DNA of 64,000 nt from Natrinema sp. SYSU A 869 (GTDB lineage: Archaea > Halobacteriota > Halobacteria > Halobacteriales > Natrialbaceae). The translations under genes were made by a program, and so were the position numbers. Positions 9,766-51,076 of this stretch are shown piece after piece; position 1 is the stretch's first letter; each line of letters opens with the position of its first letter. Under the pieces are notes generated by a model. It did not search any database. It saw only the letters and a program-made list of their open reading frames with translations, and was not told where the DNA came from. Location of the stretch: positions 2,170,001 to 2,234,000 of the forward strand of contig NZ_CP082249.1 in the NCBI RefSeq assembly GCF_019879105.1. The letters are read 5' to 3'.

Positions 9766-10509
9766 TTAGGCCGTGAGAGTGTTGCTCGTCAGTTCCGCGA
9801 GCGTCCCTTCGGTCGTGTAATCGGGGGCCTCGACCCTGAACCGGGAGTCTGTCGAGCCCGCGTAGTGGAGTTGTAGCGTGTACGAGCCGTCCTCGGCGAT
9901 CGGTGCGGCTTCGGCGCGCTCTGCATCGAGTTGTTCGAGCATGACCATCTCACCGGCGTAGGCAGCGTCGGACTGTCCCTGAATGTGGTAGGTCGCCCGA
10001 TCCTCCGAGACCTCAGAGCCCTCGAGCGGATAGCCGGAATTGATCCACGCCTGAAATCCGTCGTCGAGCGCGTATACCTCCTCGTAACCGTTGTCGATCA
10101 GCGATGCGGCACGCAGTCCGGAGAGGTGGTGGGGACAGCCACAGTAGGTGACGATGCGATCATCCGTGGACCAGTCTGCGATCGGATCGTCCGAACCGCC
10201 GTCCGGGGCAGGGCTCAGCGGTGCCCCGGCGATATGCGCGTTCTCGTACTGGTTTGATTTACGTGCATCAGCCACCCGTGCTTCCTGTCGCTGATACCAG
10301 TAGAAGACGTCCTCGATGGGAGCCAGTGGCACCTCGATACCGTCGTATGCTTTCGTCTGATAGGTACTCGTGTCGATCGACCGCTCTTCGGGTTCCGATT
10401 CCGGTTTCGGGCCGTATCCGTCACCCTGTCCGCCGTCACCGCTGAGGCACCCCGCGACGCTCGTCACGGCCGCCGTCGAGCCTACTGCGAGAAACTGCCG
10501 TCGGTTCAT
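9766..10509 (-). CDS. Rhodanese-domain lipoprotein exported by the Tat pathway
   Basis: This 247-residue protein begins MNRRQFLAVGSTAAVTSVAG with the twin-arginine motif RRQF and a lipobox VAGC at Cys21, so it should be exported folded and lipid-anchored outside the membrane. The middle (about 75-160) is a rhodanese domain: VADARKSNQYENAHIAGA, then TYCGCPHHLSGLRAA with the likely catalytic cysteine, and GFQAWINSGYPL. Rhodaneses transfer sulfane sulfur; the physiological donor is unknown. The C-terminal 80 residues form a beta-rich domain I cannot name. It converges on the flavin oxidoreductase with almost no spacing. Confidence 0.82.
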   Translation of the reverse strand: MNRRQFLAVGSTAAVTSVAGCLSGDGGQGDGYGPKPESEPEERSIDTSTYQTKAYDGIEVPLAPIEDVFYWYQRQEARVADARKSNQYENAHIAGAPLSPAPDGGSDDPIADWSTDDRIVTYCGCPHHLSGLRAASLIDNGYEEVYALDDGFQAWINSGYPLEGSEVSEDRATYHIQGQSDAAYAGEMVMLEQLDAERAEAAPIAEDGSYTLQLHYAGSTDSRFRVEAPDYTTEGTLAELTSNTLTA

Positions 10510-10567: not shown

Positions 10568-10593
10568 GTGACCCCTTCGTTTCAACTGGAAAC
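10568..10593 (-). other. Isolated ORB-like element far from the origin
   Basis: On the minus strand this reads GTTTCCAGTTGAAACGAAGG followed by GGTCAC. It shares CCANYYGAAACGAAGGGGT with the ORB pair at 48141-48166 and 48483-48510. It lies in the intergenic space between the rhodanese gene and tRNA-Gln, about 38 kb from the origin. A binding role for Orc1 is inference. Confidence 0.5.
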
Positions 10594-10639
10594 CGAGGGA
10601 CAAGGTTGGTGAAGTGCTCGAGTCGAAACGGCAGAGAAG

Positions 10640-10712
10640 TAGTCCATGCTGGATTCGAACCAGCGTCCCGAGCCCCAGAAGCTCGGAGGATTGGCCACTA
10701 CCCTAATGGACT
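10640..10712 (-). tRNA. tRNA-Gln (anticodon CTG)
   Basis: On the minus strand the acceptor stem AGTCCAT pairs perfectly with ATGGACT, followed by discriminator A at 10640. The D-arm region is TAGGGTAGTGGCCAATCC. The anticodon stem CGAGC/GCTCG encloses TTCTGGG, giving anticodon CTG (Gln). The T-arm is CGCTGGTTCGAATCCAGC. It has no intron and encodes no CCA end. A divergent ORB-like element and a leftward HNH nuclease gene flank it. Confidence 0.92.
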
Positions 10713-45778: not shown

Positions 45779-46777
45779 TCAGTCGTCGTCCTCGTCGTCG
45801 TCGTGCCACGAATCCGGCACGTCAATGACGTACCGCCCGTCTTCCTGCAGGGAGATTATGTATTCGTCCCGGTTGTAGAGCTCCATCAGGTTGAGTTCGT
45901 ACTGTCCCGGCCGGACGATCTTGATGCTCTCGAACTGGTCATTGAGCTCCGCCCGGAGCTCCTCGATCGACGGGCGCTGCCCGCTCGGTTCGCTGACGAC
46001 GCGACCGTGTTCCGGGGGCTGGTCATCGGCATCGGGGCCGACCCCAGCCCCAGTCTCTAATCCGGTCCCGGTTTTGGCTTCGCTCTGCGGACCGACGACA
46101 CCGCCCGCGTCGCTGTCAGGTCCCGATCCGTCTCCATCCGGATTTCCGGAGTGAGGCGGGAGATCGTCCGAGGGAACGACTTCGCTGCGGGCGTCGGCCT
46201 GTGCCGAATTCTCGTCGTCCGCCATCGTCGCAGTCGGGCCGCTCGATTGTCGGTCCGACAGGTCCTGAGATGGAGCCCGCTCGTCGGAGCCCGTCTCAGT
46301 TGACGACTCGGCAGCCGCCTCGGCCGGCGATCCGGACCGATCCTCGGGCCGTCGCGCCGTCTCGGGCCACTCTTCGAACTCACCGTCCGACGGCGAGCTC
46401 GAATCACTACTGTCGGAGTCATCGCTCGAGGGCCAGGAGCCGTCCGACCCCGTAGCTGCCGTCGATCCGTTCGGCTCCGACTGCTCGGCGGACTCCGCAT
46501 CCGGTTCGTCGGCGGACCCAGCGGATACCCAGCCGCGAACGGTTTCCGCGGCGCGTGTCGCGACGCTGTCCGATTCGGGCGACTGAGCGTCCGCGGAAGC
46601 ACTCGCAGCATCGACCGACCCCGAACCGTCGGCATCAGTTCCACCGGACGATTGGGCTGTGGCCGTCGTGGTCGGCGCAAACTGAAACTTGTTCCCGCCG
46701 CAGTCTGGACACCCCGACAGCATCTCCTTGGAGCCGTCGGCGAACGTCCGGCCGCAGTTCGTACACTGGTGTGGCAT
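45779..46777 (-). CDS. oapC: Origin-associated zinc-ribbon protein OapC
   Basis: This 332-residue protein starts MPHQCTNCGRTFADGSKEML with a zinc ribbon made by CTNC and CPDC. A long acidic, serine-rich disordered stretch (about 40-270) follows, then a compact C-terminal domain (RPSIEELRAELNDQFESIKI, YELNLMELYNRDEYIISLQE, DGRYVIDVPDSWHDDDE). This layout and the oapA-oapB-oapC order next to orc1 match the origin-associated protein set described in haloarchaea. Its ATG overlaps the restored stop of oapB (TAATG). Its exact role at the origin is not established by sequence. Confidence 0.8.
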   Translation of the reverse strand: MPHQCTNCGRTFADGSKEMLSGCPDCGGNKFQFAPTTTATAQSSGGTDADGSGSVDAASASADAQSPESDSVATRAAETVRGWVSAGSADEPDAESAEQSEPNGSTAATGSDGSWPSSDDSDSSDSSSPSDGEFEEWPETARRPEDRSGSPAEAAAESSTETGSDERAPSQDLSDRQSSGPTATMADDENSAQADARSEVVPSDDLPPHSGNPDGDGSGPDSDAGGVVGPQSEAKTGTGLETGAGVGPDADDQPPEHGRVVSEPSGQRPSIEELRAELNDQFESIKIVRPGQYELNLMELYNRDEYIISLQEDGRYVIDVPDSWHDDDEDDD

Positions 46778-47186
46778 TAGTTACGGGACACGAGCGCGCT
46801 GATGAGCGTTTCGTCCTTGTGGAGCGTCTCGATCTGGTTTGCCGGTCCGATTACCGTCAGCTTTGCTTCTGTCTCGTCACCCCCATGATACGACCGAGCA
46901 GCGACGAGTCGCGGGTCTCGGACTTGGGATAGGTCTCAATCTCGATCCCATTGAACTCGTCGGGGCTGATCTCGGCCATCGTCACCTCGATGAGTCGGCT
47001 CTCCTCGTCGGGCGTCAGCCCCTCCTCCAGGATGACGATGTTGCCGTCGTGGACGCCGTCCAAGATCATCCTGATCTTCTCCATCGTCGCCATACCGTCC
47101 ATGCGCTCGCCGCTGATCAGATCGATCTGTACACCGTCGGGTGCGTCCGAATCGTCAGCGTTAGTTGCTTTTGGCATCGTAATCAC
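46777..47186 (-). pseudogene. oapB: Origin-associated DUF2073 protein OapB, apparent -1 frameshift near the end
   Basis: The first frame (start 47186) encodes MITMPKATNADDSDAPDGVQ, IDLISGERMDGMATMEKIRM and GLTPDEESRLIEVTMAEISP, then ends early at MGVTRQKQS. One more base near 46869 restores TRQEAKLTVIGPANQIETLH and KDETLISALVSRN. The stop at 46777-46779 then overlaps the oapC start (TAATG). That exact coupling makes an intact gene in nature likely. DUF2073 proteins are archaeal, and the start overlaps oapA by four bases. Molecular function is unknown. Confidence 0.8.
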
Positions 47187-47821
47187 CCGAAGTATTCGGC
47201 GATGTTGTCGTACACTTCGTCCATGTTGTCGCCCTCCTTTGCGGACAGCGGAACGGTCTTGTGCTGTGGGAAGGCGTCCTCGATCCGCTTGACGCTTGAT
47301 TCCTCGAGGTCGGTCTTGTTCGCGAAGATCAGAACGGGAAGATCGCGAGACTCGACGATACCGATCAGCATCGTGTTGACCTGCGTGATCGGATCCTCTG
47401 CGCTATCCAGAACGTAGATGACGCCGTCGACATCCTCTCGCAGCCAGTGCATCGCTTCGGCGACGCCCTCGGTAGCTTCACGGGAGCGGCGAATGGCGTC
47501 ATCTTCGTCCATTTCGTCGGTGAACTCTTCGTAGTCGACCTTCGTCGTCACACCCGGTGTGTCGACGATGTCGATGGTCACCGTCTTGCCGTCCCGTTCG
47601 ATCTCGACATTTTCTTTTCTGCGTGCGCGACGTGTCTCGTGCGGGACGTGACTCTCCGCCCCGACCGCGTCACCAGTCCAGTCACGCGCGATACGGTTCG
47701 CGAGCGTCGTCTTGCCAGCATTCGGCGGACCGTAAATACCGATTCGTTTGGGCTCCTGTTCCGAAAACAGGCGGTCCGTAGCCCGGGAAATACTATCTTT
47801 GAGTTCTGTGAACAGTCCCAT
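47183..47821 (-). CDS. oapA: Origin-associated Era/Der-like GTPase OapA
   Basis: The 212-residue form starts MGLFTELKDSISRATDRLFS. It has G1 GPPNAGKTTLANRIA, a G2 threonine region, G3 DTPGVTT, G4 NKTDL and the G5-like SAKEG. The Era/EngB-like GTPase is the first gene of oapABC, pointing away from the origin. A TATA-like CTTAAGTG lies about 55 bp upstream. An upstream ATG at 47878 would add 19 unusual residues and is rejected. GTP-dependent control of initiation is a hypothesis only. Confidence 0.85.
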   Translation of the reverse strand: MGLFTELKDSISRATDRLFSEQEPKRIGIYGPPNAGKTTLANRIARDWTGDAVGAESHVPHETRRARRKENVEIERDGKTVTIDIVDTPGVTTKVDYEEFTDEMDEDDAIRRSREATEGVAEAMHWLREDVDGVIYVLDSAEDPITQVNTMLIGIVESRDLPVLIFANKTDLEESSVKRIEDAFPQHKTVPLSAKEGDNMDEVYDNIAEYFG

Positions 47822-48140
47822 CTGTAGAGGCCTCCAGCACCGCGGGGTGCATCTGCGCGTACTACAAACTGAACTCACTTAAGCCTACGTCAGACGTGTA
47901 GACAATTCGATGAAATTGAGTTAGTGCGAGCCGAGATTGTAATCGAGACCGATACGCGTTTGCAACGAATACTGAGGGAAAACCCGGCCGAAAGAGCAAT
48001 TGTGAGTCCGGGTCAGACGAATAGGGAGAGCTGAGCACAATGGGCAACGTGAACTGTAACCAGTGATACTTGTTTGTATCCAATGGTATGATAATATATA
48101 CCATATGGACACATGAGGGACAAATCGAGAGGTCTGGAGA

Positions 48141-48166
48141 CCCCCACCCCTTCGTTTCGAGTGGAG
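48141..48166 (-). other. Origin recognition box (ORB 1)
   Basis: On the minus strand it reads CTCCACTCGAAACGAAGGGG followed by TGGGGG. Compared with ORB 2 it differs at only a few places. The G-run points away from the A+T-rich segment. Orc1/Cdc6 binding is known for such boxes and inferred here. Confidence 0.8.
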
Positions 48167-48291
48167 ATTGTCGAGGGCACGGGTGGGAACACGAACTGGC
48201 GGACCGATGTCGGGAGGAAGTTTGCCCCGTATTTCGACTCGAGACGGTTCTCAGGCCAACTGTGAGGCTGAATTCGTCGATAGAGACGTTT

Positions 48292-48419
48292 CTAGTAACT
48301 CAGAAGGCTATCTAGCAAGATAGACGTCTCCAAGTGATGATTCTAGCAGGAACTAGTAAATACAATCTCAGCTCTAGTAAGACTAGCTGTTTTGCTAGTG
48401 CTACGGTTACTGTTTCTAG
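48292..48419. other. A+T-rich, CTAG-dense segment, candidate duplex unwinding element
   Basis: Eight CTAG tetranucleotides occur in 128 bases (48292, 48312, 48343, 48353, 48374, 48383, 48395, 48416), mostly as TTCTAG or CTAGYA. The segment is much richer in A+T than flanking genes and lies between the inverted ORBs, where unwinding is expected. Confidence 0.65.
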
Positions 48420-48482
48420 TCTACCCAAATAAATCTTCCCGTGATAAATTGCTGTCGAACCCCCCACCCACCCTTTTGACTC

Positions 48483-48510
48483 GTTCCACCCGAAACGAAG
48501 GGGTGGGGGG
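48483..48510 (+). other. Origin recognition box (ORB 2)
   Basis: GTTCCACCCGAAACGAAGGG followed by GTGGGGGG. It is inverted relative to ORB 1 with the G-run pointing outwards. A separate C-rich stretch just upstream (GAACCCCCCACCCACCC) may be part of a second, overlapping G-string. Confidence 0.8.
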
Positions 48511-49104
48511 ATTCGACGATCCGTCAGATGGTATCCCATACCACATTTCCATAATCAATCCTCGAGCCGGTCTTCTCATCGTCTCGGAACTGAGACGACA
48601 CGCGTCCCGATGACCCATCCCGGTCACGCATCACGGAGACACCATGGAGAGACGTAATATCACGGAAATACGTAGGGGAGATTCGTCCCTATTTATTCAA
48701 TTTTCCAATCTATTACCATGTCCCCGCAAAACCATCAGAAAGACGTCAGTAATAGAACGGGACGAACTCGAGACTACGTCATGAGATACTGTTTTGTCAG
48801 CCTATCGTTATCTTTCGATTGAGCATCTCAATCGTTCATCCCGCGATAGCCGATCATCAGATGTCACGGTCTCTTTGCTGGTATAACACTCGCTGACAAT
48901 CTACTACTATGTTACTAACTAGTATTGTTTTGTGCAACGCGTGGACCCAATCGATACTAGTCTACGCTACGACGCTGCAACTACCCCATTAGTTCGAGTG
49001 TCGGCTTTTTCTCGAGCGGATCCAATCAGCTGACAACGATTCACCGGGAGAAAGAGAGAGTAGAACCCGATCGTGAGAAGACAATTGGCTCCACACTGAA
49101 CGCC

Positions 49105-49130
49105 GTTTCCGTTCTAAAACGAGGGGGAAG
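49105..49130 (+). other. Weak ORB-like motif
   Basis: GTTTCCGTTCTAAAACGAGG and GGGAAG keep the AAACGA plus G-run core but a poor dyad half. It lies midway between ORB 2 and the orc1 promoter. Confidence 0.35.
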
Positions 49131-49257
49131 GGAAGGCTTTATTACCGTGGTTTTCCTCTGTTTCGTTTGCATCAACTGGACCCGAATCGGGTATCTGGAA
49201 TGGTGGATCCCTCCACGGAGGCGATCACACCGCTATATTCCCGCTCCCTGGTTCGGC

Positions 49258-49283
49258 GTTCCACTCGAAATAAGGGGGTGCTG
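49258..49283 (+). promoter_or_regulatory. ORB at the orc1 promoter
   Basis: GTTCCACTCGAAATAAGGGG followed by GTGCTG lies just downstream of a TATA-like GCTATATTCC (49232-49241) and ends eight bases before the orc1 ATG. It covers the predicted transcription start, so Orc1 binding could repress its own gene. That feedback is inference. Confidence 0.65.
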
Positions 49284-49291
49284 TACGACGG

Positions 49292-51076
49292 ATGTCAGAC
49301 GATAACTCAGAGATCACTGGTTCGGACGAGGTCGATGGAACGAGCGGATTCTCGACGAACTTCGAGAACGCCGATCTCGGCGACGAAGAGTCGAATCAGG
49401 GACTGTTCGACGACCTGCTCAGCGGCGAACCGATCTTCGAGAACAAGGAAGTCCTCCGCCCGTCCTATACGCCACACGAACTCCCCCACCGGAGCGATCA
49501 GATCAACAAGATGGCGACGATCCTCGTCGCTGCGCTCCGCGGTGAAACGCCGTCAAACATTCTCATCTACGGGAAAACCGGGACCGGCAAGACTGCGAGC
49601 GCCAAGTTCGTCAGTAAGGAACTCGAGAGCACCTCCCAGAAGTACTCCGTTCCGTGTGACGTCGAGTACATCAACTGTGAGGTCACTGATACCCAGTACC
49701 GCGTACTCGCACAACTCGCGAACAAGTTCATCGAGAAGAACAAAGCACGGATCGACGACCGCGTCGCGGAACTCGAGTCGCTGCTGGACGATCTCGACGA
49801 GTACGACGCCGACGCGGCGCGTCGCAGTACCGACGTAATCGAGTCCAGTACTGAAGCGGACGACCAAACGGCGTCGGACCCCTTCGATTTCGCCTCGAGC
49901 GAGGAGACGGAGCCGGACACAGATATTTCGACTGGAACCGATACCGGTGCTATGTCGGGCGGTTCTCCACTCGAAGAAGGGGGGTCTTCTGGCGGGCCAG
50001 CGGATTCCGCCGACCCATCGCCGTCCGCCGAGGAGACTGGACTGGCGGACGTTAACGGCACCGATCACGACGATGCGACGACCGATCCGACTGCGCCCCC
50101 ACCGGACCATCCTCTCGAGTCGACGGCGTTCGAGACCCGTGCCGAGGTCGACGACCGAATCACCGAACTCGAGGACGACAAGGACTCGTTCGAAGAGGTA
50201 CCAATGACCGGGTGGCCGACGGATCGGGTCTACAGCGTCTTCTTCGACGCCGTCGATTACGACGAGCGTGTCGTCGTCATCATGTTGGACGAGATCGACA
50301 AACTCGTCGAGAAGAGCGGCGACGACACGCTCTATAACCTCTCGCGGATGAACTCCGAGCTGGAGAACTCGCGGGTGTCAATCATCGGTATTTCGAACGA
50401 TCTGAAGTTCACCGATTTCCTCGATCCGCGGGTCAAGTCCTCGCTGGGTGAAGAGGAAATCGTCTTCCCGCCCTACGACGCGAATCAGCTGCGGGACATC
50501 CTCAAACACCGCTCGGAGGTTGCGTTCAAGGGCAACGCGCTCTCCGATGACGTGATCCCGTTGTGTGCGGCCTTCGCCGCACAGGAACACGGCGACGCGC
50601 GACGTGCGCTGGATCTCCTGCGGACCGCAGGCGAACTGGCCGAACGGTCCCAGGCCGAAACGATCGTCGAGGAACACGTGCGTCAGGCCCAGGACAAAAT
50701 TGAACTCGATCGCGTCGTCGAGGTCGTCCGCACACTGCCTACCCAGAGCAAACTCGTCCTCTTCGCGATCATCCTCCTCGAGAAAAACGGCGTCCACAGC
50801 ATCAACACGGGCGAGGTGTTCAACATCTACAAGCGCCTCTGCGAGGAGATCGACGCGGACGTGCTGACCCAGCGGCGCGTGACCGATCTGATCAGCGAAC
50901 TCGATATGCTCGGGATCGTCAACGCCGTCGTCGTCTCGAAGGGACGGTACGGCCGGACCAAGGAAATCAGCCTTTCCGTTCCACTCGAAGAGACGGAAGC
51001 GGTCTTACTGAGCGACTCCAGACTGAGCGACATCGACGACGTCCAGCCGTTCGTCCAGGCGCGGTTCGAGAACTGA
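49292..51076 (+). CDS. orc1: Orc1/Cdc6 replication initiator
   Basis: This 594-residue AAA+ protein has Walker A GKTGTGKT (94-101), Walker B VVVIMLDEIDKL (about 327-338), sensor 1 IIGISNDL and sensor 2 GDARRALDLL. A C-terminal winged helix (about 500-590, TQRRVTDLISELDMLGIVNA) follows. Between Walker A and B is an acidic low-complexity insert (about 165-290), longer than in most archaeal Orc1 proteins but known in haloarchaea. It binds ORBs and loads MCM. It is divergent from oapABC across the origin. The insert's DNA carries an ORB-like motif (49963-49990). Confidence 0.92.
   Translation: MSDDNSEITGSDEVDGTSGFSTNFENADLGDEESNQGLFDDLLSGEPIFENKEVLRPSYTPHELPHRSDQINKMATILVAALRGETPSNILIYGKTGTGKTASAKFVSKELESTSQKYSVPCDVEYINCEVTDTQYRVLAQLANKFIEKNKARIDDRVAELESLLDDLDEYDADAARRSTDVIESSTEADDQTASDPFDFASSEETEPDTDISTGTDTGAMSGGSPLEEGGSSGGPADSADPSPSAEETGLADVNGTDHDDATTDPTAPPPDHPLESTAFETRAEVDDRITELEDDKDSFEEVPMTGWPTDRVYSVFFDAVDYDERVVVIMLDEIDKLVEKSGDDTLYNLSRMNSELENSRVSIIGISNDLKFTDFLDPRVKSSLGEEEIVFPPYDANQLRDILKHRSEVAFKGNALSDDVIPLCAAFAAQEHGDARRALDLLRTAGELAERSQAETIVEEHVRQAQDKIELDRVVEVVRTLPTQSKLVLFAIILLEKNGVHSINTGEVFNIYKRLCEEIDADVLTQRRVTDLISELDMLGIVNAVVVSKGRYGRTKEISLSVPLEETEAVLLSDSRLSDIDDVQPFVQARFEN
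49963..49990 (+). other. ORB-like motif inside the orc1 coding region
   Basis: CTCCACTCGAAGAAGGGGGG, followed by TCTTCT, lies in the low-complexity insert of orc1. A short dyad half TTTCGACTGGAAC precedes it at 49926-49938 in opposite orientation. A closely similar pair lies in the DP1 gene. Confidence 0.5.

Follow-up and report, generated by a model that had tools for sequence, protein, structure and literature searches.

A conserved ORB between the predicted promoter and the start codon of haloarchaeal orc1 genes

A single ORB lies directly ahead of the orc1 initiator gene of Natrinema sp. SYSU A 869, to the right of the ORB pair of oriC1. Does this box belong to the origin or to the control of orc1? 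The window (the whole 64,000-nt stretch of DNA analyzed here) encodes orc1 at 49292-51076 on the + strand. The 594-aa product is an Orc1/Cdc6 initiator with matches to Cdc6_C (5.5e-32) and Cdc6_lid (2.3e-30). A preliminary description of the window placed an ORB over the orc1 transcription start, with initiation near 49265 directed by a TATA-like box, and suggested that bound Orc1 could repress its own transcription.

The ORB ahead of orc1

Pattern matching located the start-proximal ORB TTCCACTCGAAATAAGGGGG at 49259-49278 (+), 1 mismatch away from the search pattern TTCCANNNGAAAYNAAGGGG and lacking the extended G-string. At up to 3 mismatches, TTCCANNNGAAAYNAAGGGG has 9 sites in the window and an average of 0.34 in shuffled windows. 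The looser pattern TTCCANNNGAAAYNANGGGG returned six sites with at most 1 mismatch in the 5.67-Mb genome, this ORB among them. The ORB dyad TTCCANNNGAAA is present at 49259-49278.

The orc1 gene was found in 288 of the 293 genomes of the order, and the ORB was scored in 114 haloarchaeal loci: 44 from named records, the window's own and 69 from other genomes of the order (29 among the matches listed and 40 picked by hand, about one per genus). Another 30 genomes were chosen by family, for a total of 99 genomes of the order besides the window's own. Loci from named records and from the order's genomes can be the same species, and a 44%-identity paralogue (L098) was excluded from all haloarchaeal counts. 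An ORB with at most 4 mismatches starts 24-50 nt before an in-frame ATG in 109 of the 114 loci, a count that required the same strand as orc1, and the distance to the ATG is 33-34 nt in 64 of these 109. Four of the five misses (L034, L045, L050 and L143) do carry an ORB, placed 93-97 nt past the promoter block (see below), and were lost to the start-codon requirement; the fifth, L055, has no ORB. The claimed ORB ahead of orc1 is borne out by the single mismatch to TTCCANNNGAAAYNAAGGGG and by this count, which makes the window's ORB the local case of a widespread haloarchaeal feature.

Base frequencies were calculated from 59 nonredundant loci. Dyad positions 1-4 and 8-11 have frequencies of 0.98-1.00, position 0 is T or C, and at least 97% of the loci have G at each of positions 16-19, the G-string after the dyad. 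The dyad and G-string identify the box as an archaeal ORB, with Orc1 as its predicted ligand.

Two ORBs form the inverted pair of oriC1, the left at 48147-48166 (-) and the right at 48484-48503 (+), the latter followed by the extended G-string TGGGGGG. The start ORB is outside this pair, 775 bp further right. It keeps the dyad and GGGG of the origin ORBs and is looser at positions 12-15 (59 loci). G is not preferred at positions 21-23 of the start ORB (59 loci), compared with 0.87-0.96 G in the origin ORBs (53 right, 53 left), and the window's start ORB reads TGCTGT where an origin ORB has the extended G-string. The minimal oriC1 of Har. hispanica is reported as the AT-rich region between two inverted ORBs (PMC3936714).

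Other features surround these elements. The oriC1 arms (48141-48187 and 48463-48509) are a 47-nt inverted repeat, 77% complementary and 275 bp apart, that contains the ORB pair and G-rich extensions. The opposite side of oriC1 (45779-47878, -) carries genes for OapC, OapB and an MMR_HSR1-type GTPase. A perfect ORB, TTCCAGTTGAAACGAAGGGG, lies far from oriC1 at 10572-10591 (-), between a rhodanese-domain gene (9766-10509, -) and tRNA-Gln (10639-10712, -). All six genomic ORBs with at most 1 mismatch fall within 2097363-2219278 of the window's contig, inside the 122 kb upstream of orc1.

The predicted orc1 promoter and the spacer to the ORB

Anchoring the loci on the ORB revealed a much stronger element upstream, a TATA box followed by the near-invariant stretch TTCCTCTGGTTCNNNTGCATCAACTGGAC, which extends to 49181 in the window. 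The TATA box of this promoter, P1, is TTTATTA at 49138-49144 (+) and TTTAATA in many relatives. Column information defines a block at 49151-49181 (+) with the consensus TNTTCCTCTGGTTCNNNTGCATCAACTGGAC. Information reaches 1.5-2.0 bits in columns 0-2, 6-7, 10-12 and 15-19 of the block, as measured in 59 nonredundant loci kept from 107 usable loci of the 109 (L056 and L129 were dropped). The T-G at 49168-49169 is almost invariant, and the pattern TTCNNNTGCATCAACTGGAC (49162-49181) has a single exact match in the genome. At least six of the seven P1 TATA positions are A/T in 54/59 nonredundant loci, 16/16 genomes of the genus and 120/126 loci of the widest set.

Archaeal TATA centers lie about 26 bp ahead of the start site. 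The P1 TATA is centered at 49141, which predicts a start at about 49165-49169 (+), within the conserved columns of the block, and a 5' leader of about 123 nt (49169-49291, +) with the ORB near +91 to +110. P1 is a predicted core promoter, in which a conserved start region follows a conserved TATA by about 26 bp; the exact start is a prediction from these parts. Leaderless transcripts are reported to make up 72% of the protein-coding ones in Haloferax volcanii (PMC4983044), which makes a long conserved leader more an exception than the norm.

The distance from block to ORB is nearly fixed. Its median is 97 bp with an interquartile range of 96-98 bp and a range of 87-107 bp (n = 107); L028, among the long spacings, was anchored 9 nt early and has a true spacing of 97. 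By comparison, the start ORB lies 205-1202 bp from the right origin ORB (n = 50). The widest set gave 143 usable loci of 144 (L215 was lost), and 127 of these have a block score of at least 13/17. Scores in random sequence are mostly 10-11, and 13 was reached in 7 of 300 trials of 1040 positions. An ORB with at most 4 mismatches follows the block by 87-107 bp in 123 of the 127 loci, by 95-99 bp in 115, and was not found at that threshold in L200, L203, L206 and L207. Sixteen loci have a block score below 13. Five of them (L028, L048, L053, L096 and L208) still show an ORB at 87-98 bp, and two (L120 and L126) are probably orientation errors of the script, with ORBs that appear in the 114-locus count; both loci also stayed among the 107 usable ones, and their genomes match the combined pattern given below. 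Neither element is clear in nine of the 143 loci (L055, L056, L202 and L209-L214), mostly from the deepest families sampled. The combined pattern TCAACTGGA-N62-92-TCCANNNGAAA has matches in 178 of 293 genomes of the order and one match when reversed; a few of the matches listed sit away from orc1.

Spacings of 87-94 bp do exist (family f12 and a few others), so a strict face-to-face geometry of block and ORB is not required, and strict helical phasing of the two is unsupported given the spacings of 91-94 bp. The ORB was also considered as the TATA/BRE of a leaderless transcript and rejected because its distance to the ATG varies over 24-50 nt while the promoter block stays in place. Third positions in the block looked coding-like, which brought up a small protein (the VFLWFVCINWT frame); an in-frame TAG lies 15 nt before the block in several genomes (such as L156, L158, L159, L162 and L166), no conserved start codon was seen in the loci read by eye, and this candidate was dropped. 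An inverted repeat upstream of the ORB, visible by eye in single genomes, does not exceed shuffles.

The spacer between block and ORB (49182-49258, +) is 77 bp in the window, and in the class profile it has nearly fixed length and little sequence conservation. Mean pairwise identity is 0.30 in the spacer and 0.26 in DNA further upstream, compared to 0.84 in the block and 0.78 in the ORB. The class-wide A/T profile has peaks near columns 36, 45, 55, 66 and 76 (about 49198, 49207, 49217, 49228 and 49238). Periodicity was measured in the 55 of 59 nonredundant loci with spacings of 95-99. The period-10 A/T power is 0.574, and shuffles have a mean of 0.004 and a maximum of 0.03. Phase coherence is R = 0.87, and 55/55 loci fall within a quarter turn. 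Powers of 0.000-0.046 came from seven control regions: coding DNA, the two flanks of the right origin ORB and four strips further upstream. The highest belongs to a strip at -90 to -40 before the block with a slight 10-bp signal (null maximum 0.032). The nonredundant loci share ancestry and shuffles ignore kinship, and two subsets and 21 further loci served as safeguards. The 18 loci sorted as the window's family and the other 37 have phases of 4.9 and 5.5; this sorting was done by hand from family and record labels, and at least L030 may belong in the other subset. The 21 further loci, drawn from 24 (L186-L209) after three were dropped for a weak block, have a power of 0.350 against a null of 0.011 and a phase of 5.2.

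Periodicity is uneven at the level of single loci. Ranked against the flanking DNA of the same locus, the spacer reaches the top 5% in 35/55 loci, and the window's copy is weakly periodic (power 0.38, top 16% of the window). AA, TT, AT and TA each make up 8-12% of dinucleotides at the peaks but fall to about 1% in the troughs, and AA/TT are not favored. Letters are nearly free within the A/T or G/C class, with an entropy of 0.926 of 1 where about 0.97 is expected for the sample size. Phased A/T with free letters suggests DNA that is contacted on one face each turn, as in wrapped or bent DNA or a periodic array. Across the set of loci, the spacer has the sequence character of protein-wrapped DNA (weak in the window's copy alone), and wrapping is the predicted state. 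According to PMC10128011, four model halophile genomes have no such A/T periodicity overall.

ORBs and orc1 promoters outside the haloarchaea

Thirty-five non-haloarchaeal loci (L058-L092) were screened. In 13 of them, all from Methanosarcina-type methanogens, ANME-2, Methanothrix or Methanocellales, a TATA-like box upstream of orc1 is preceded at 33-35 bp by a + strand ORB. An ORB with a G-string was not found in range in 17, and the other 5 have a different arrangement or were read differently by the script. These 13 loci suggest that the tie between ORB and orc1 promoter could predate the haloarchaea, the ORB being on the opposite side of the TATA. In L065-L068 and L070 the TATA is followed by block-like sequence (13-15 of 17), and the ORB is 49 bp before the place corresponding to the block in 9 of 16 non-haloarchaeal loci listed. 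A sixth high block score, in L062, is away from the gene, and the remaining loci score 10-12, no better than random. These similarities suggest that the haloarchaeal and methanogen blocks could be homologous.

Close to the expected start, some methanogen and ANME-2 loci have a TTCCATTGCATCAATTGGAA-like block whose sequence resembles the ORB dyad with a widened gap. In the window, an ORB-like sequence with 4 mismatches at 49107-49126 lies 31 bp before the P1 TATA, near the place of the methanogen ORB, and three genus relatives (L102-L104) have a similar site, one at 2 mismatches. An ancestral ORB upstream of the haloarchaeal TATA was considered and set aside: such a site (at most 4 mismatches) occurs in 4 of 107 loci, all of one genus, compared to 5 in a double-width control strip.

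Proposed control of orc1 and its alternatives

The elements of the orc1 module, their conservation, their spacing and the phasing are observed across these loci. With about even confidence, we read the ORB at 49259-49278 as a cis-regulatory site of orc1, probably for autoregulation through a bent or wrapped promoter-ORB complex. The suggestion that the ORB is tied to orc1 control and not to the origin gains support from three features. The promoter distance is near-fixed while the origin distance varies several-fold, the extended G-string of origin ORBs is missing, and the ORB precedes the orc1 TATA by 33-35 bp in the 13 methanogen-type loci. In the proposed mechanism, orc1 would be transcribed from P1 with the ORB inside the transcribed leader, about 91-110 bp downstream of the start. 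The near-fixed length of the spacer and its 10-bp A/T phasing point to bent or wrapped DNA from the start-spanning block to the ORB, a shape that a histone, another nucleoid protein or Orc1 itself could impose. ORB-bound Orc1 and a factor bound to the block would then act as a single complex. Negative feedback is the most likely outcome: when Orc1 is plentiful, the ORB would fill and the promoter would be closed or the polymerase stopped. This scheme predicts where transcription starts, that Orc1 occupies the ORB, that the DNA is bent or wrapped and that the effect is negative.

A more specific form of this mechanism is proposed tentatively. The block and the ORB about 97 bp downstream may be the two ends of one wrapped, nucleosome-like regulatory segment, in which Orc1 closes the wrap and turns orc1 off. 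Length and A/T phase would be under selection with the sequence mostly free, and the segment would descend from a Methanosarcina-type arrangement with the ORB before the TATA. If true, archaea would have their own counterpart of dnaA autoregulation, one that operates through DNA architecture instead of start occlusion.

Some results weigh against autoregulation. Mutation of ORB2 or ORB3 of oriC1 in S. islandicus is reported to leave Orc1-1 at the wild-type level (PMC12141716), which counts against it by analogy, although those boxes are origin ORBs. The orthologue orc7 is described as deletable in Halobacterium NRC-1 (PMC1906834); this dispensability and the lineages without an ORB also argue against an autoregulatory site.

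It is possible, though unlikely, that the leader forms a positioned nucleosome-like particle (of the HpyA/HstA type or from another protein) that sets orc1 expression by itself, with the ORB as a mere border and no regulatory role for Orc1. Histones prefer 10-bp A/T phasing, HpyA-bound regions are reported to have a 10.4-bp periodicity (PMC10128011), and the Natrinema genome contains a tandem histone gene, a 165-aa open frame with two histone folds. The same source describes an 11-bp, not a 10-bp, periodicity for HstA-bound Haloferax loci (PMC10128011). A border role leaves unexplained the near-fixed distance to an ORB with intact dyad and G-string and the methanogen tie of the ORB to the orc1 TATA.

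An autoregulatory ORB is also preferred over a third oriC1 element that adds Orc1/MCM loading capacity and is unrelated to orc1 transcription, a role that we consider decidedly unlikely. The dyad and core G-string match the origin ORBs, origin and gene adjoin, and the start ORB has the same strand as the right origin ORB in the counted loci, a strand that the count required. Against this role, the start ORB has no extended G-string, and G-string mutation in either oriC1 ORB is reported to abolish function of the minimal Har. hispanica oriC1 (PMC3936714). The distance to the origin is also free, whereas the distance to the promoter is constrained.

The preliminary description had Orc1 block initiation directly by occupying a start inside the ORB, and this now appears quite improbable. 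The letters of the proposed TATA-like box, GCTATATTCC at 49232-49241 (+), are present with the spacing that such a start requires, and A/T content at this place is raised class-wide (0.65 compared to 0.43; 67 nonredundant loci kept from the 109). The promoter role gained no support. A 7-mer with at least 6 A/T occurs at this place in 5/59 nonredundant loci, little above control windows (18/531), and in 6/16 genomes of the genus, and a TATA-like core is found there in 4/59 loci compared to 57/59 at P1, about 95 bp upstream. The box coincides with the fifth and last A/T patch of the spacer profile, so its A/T excess is one of several in the 10-bp series and it is read as a phased patch, not a promoter. 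A start near 49265 is probably wrong and was rejected as the leading model on conservation (54/59 and 16/16 for the P1 box); P1 would place the start about 90 bp upstream of the ORB.

Action of the element in the mRNA, either by ribosome binding through the G-string close to the ATG or by a regulatory RNA fold of the leader, is very improbable. Transcription would put the ORB 24-50 nt ahead of the ATG in the mRNA, and its GGGGT could presumably pair with the 16S rRNA 3' end. The two halves of the ORB, dyad and G-string, are however equally invariant, and a structured leader was rejected since 59 leaders have no consensus fold (RNAalifold energy -0.5), the mean MFE z of -0.72 against base shuffles is weak (below -2 in 19% of leaders), and an Rfam search of 47800-49500 gave one match, far below the gathering score.

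The closest likeness to an autoregulatory ORB is the set of DnaA boxes in bacterial dnaA promoters, named as a bacterial autoregulatory mechanism in PMC3936714. In both cases an initiator-type box lies in the region that controls the initiator gene itself, beside the origin, with the effect on orc1 expression a prediction from sequence. The differences are an archaeal Orc1/ORB pair, a TATA-type promoter and a near-fixed phased spacer, and the haloarchaeal box is about 91 bp downstream of the predicted start while the methanogen box is upstream of the TATA. The ORB cluster oriC2D, downstream of cdc6E in Haloarcula hispanica, is another case of ORBs outside an origin core, proposed to limit initiation through initiator titration (PMC3936714). 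It consists of eleven ORBs after another cdc6 gene, in contrast to a single ORB in the orc1 leader that is locked to the promoter. The haloarchaeal oriC1 pair shares the dyad, core G-string and initiator family (PMC3528665, PMC3936714); its ORBs, one on either side of an AT-rich element, have the halophile G-string extension that the single start ORB lacks. HpyA-bound regions of Halobacterium resemble the spacer in having local helical A/T phasing with none genome-wide (PMC10128011). That periodicity comes from pooled ChIP peaks, whereas the spacer is one orthologous leader with its phase locked from promoter to ORB across many genera.

The orc1 module bears on how archaea limit initiator supply. 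Control of the dnaA type has been published in haloarchaea for oriC2 titration (PMC3936714), which also appears, next to an ATP-ADP switch of Cdc6, in a review of archaeal origins (PMC4010727), and PMC3936714 also proposes that linkage of cdc6 and origin times cdc6 transcription. A search by titles and abstract openings, with few subscription journals covered, found no paper on an archaeal Orc1 that controls its own gene. For genetically tractable haloarchaea (Haloferax, Haloarcula), the conserved module supplies precise targets for mutation. The phased spacer is an apparent case of DNA shape conserved without sequence, in a group described as having no overall periodicity (four model genomes; PMC10128011), and through it the histones or further nucleoid proteins of haloarchaea could be connected to one defined site.

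Other orc genes were screened for ORBs of their own. The paralogues L002, L016 and L017 of the same genome have upstream repeat copies within 60 nt of the presumed start, with 0-2 mismatches in 18 nt compared to 4-6 in shuffles, perhaps the same design for other initiators. The repeats are suggestive, but start codons and origin limits are unsure, and these candidates were not retained. The orc1 open frames are 500-850 aa among the matches listed, and Orc1 of the window has a long acidic insert within the AAA+ domain (49800-50200).
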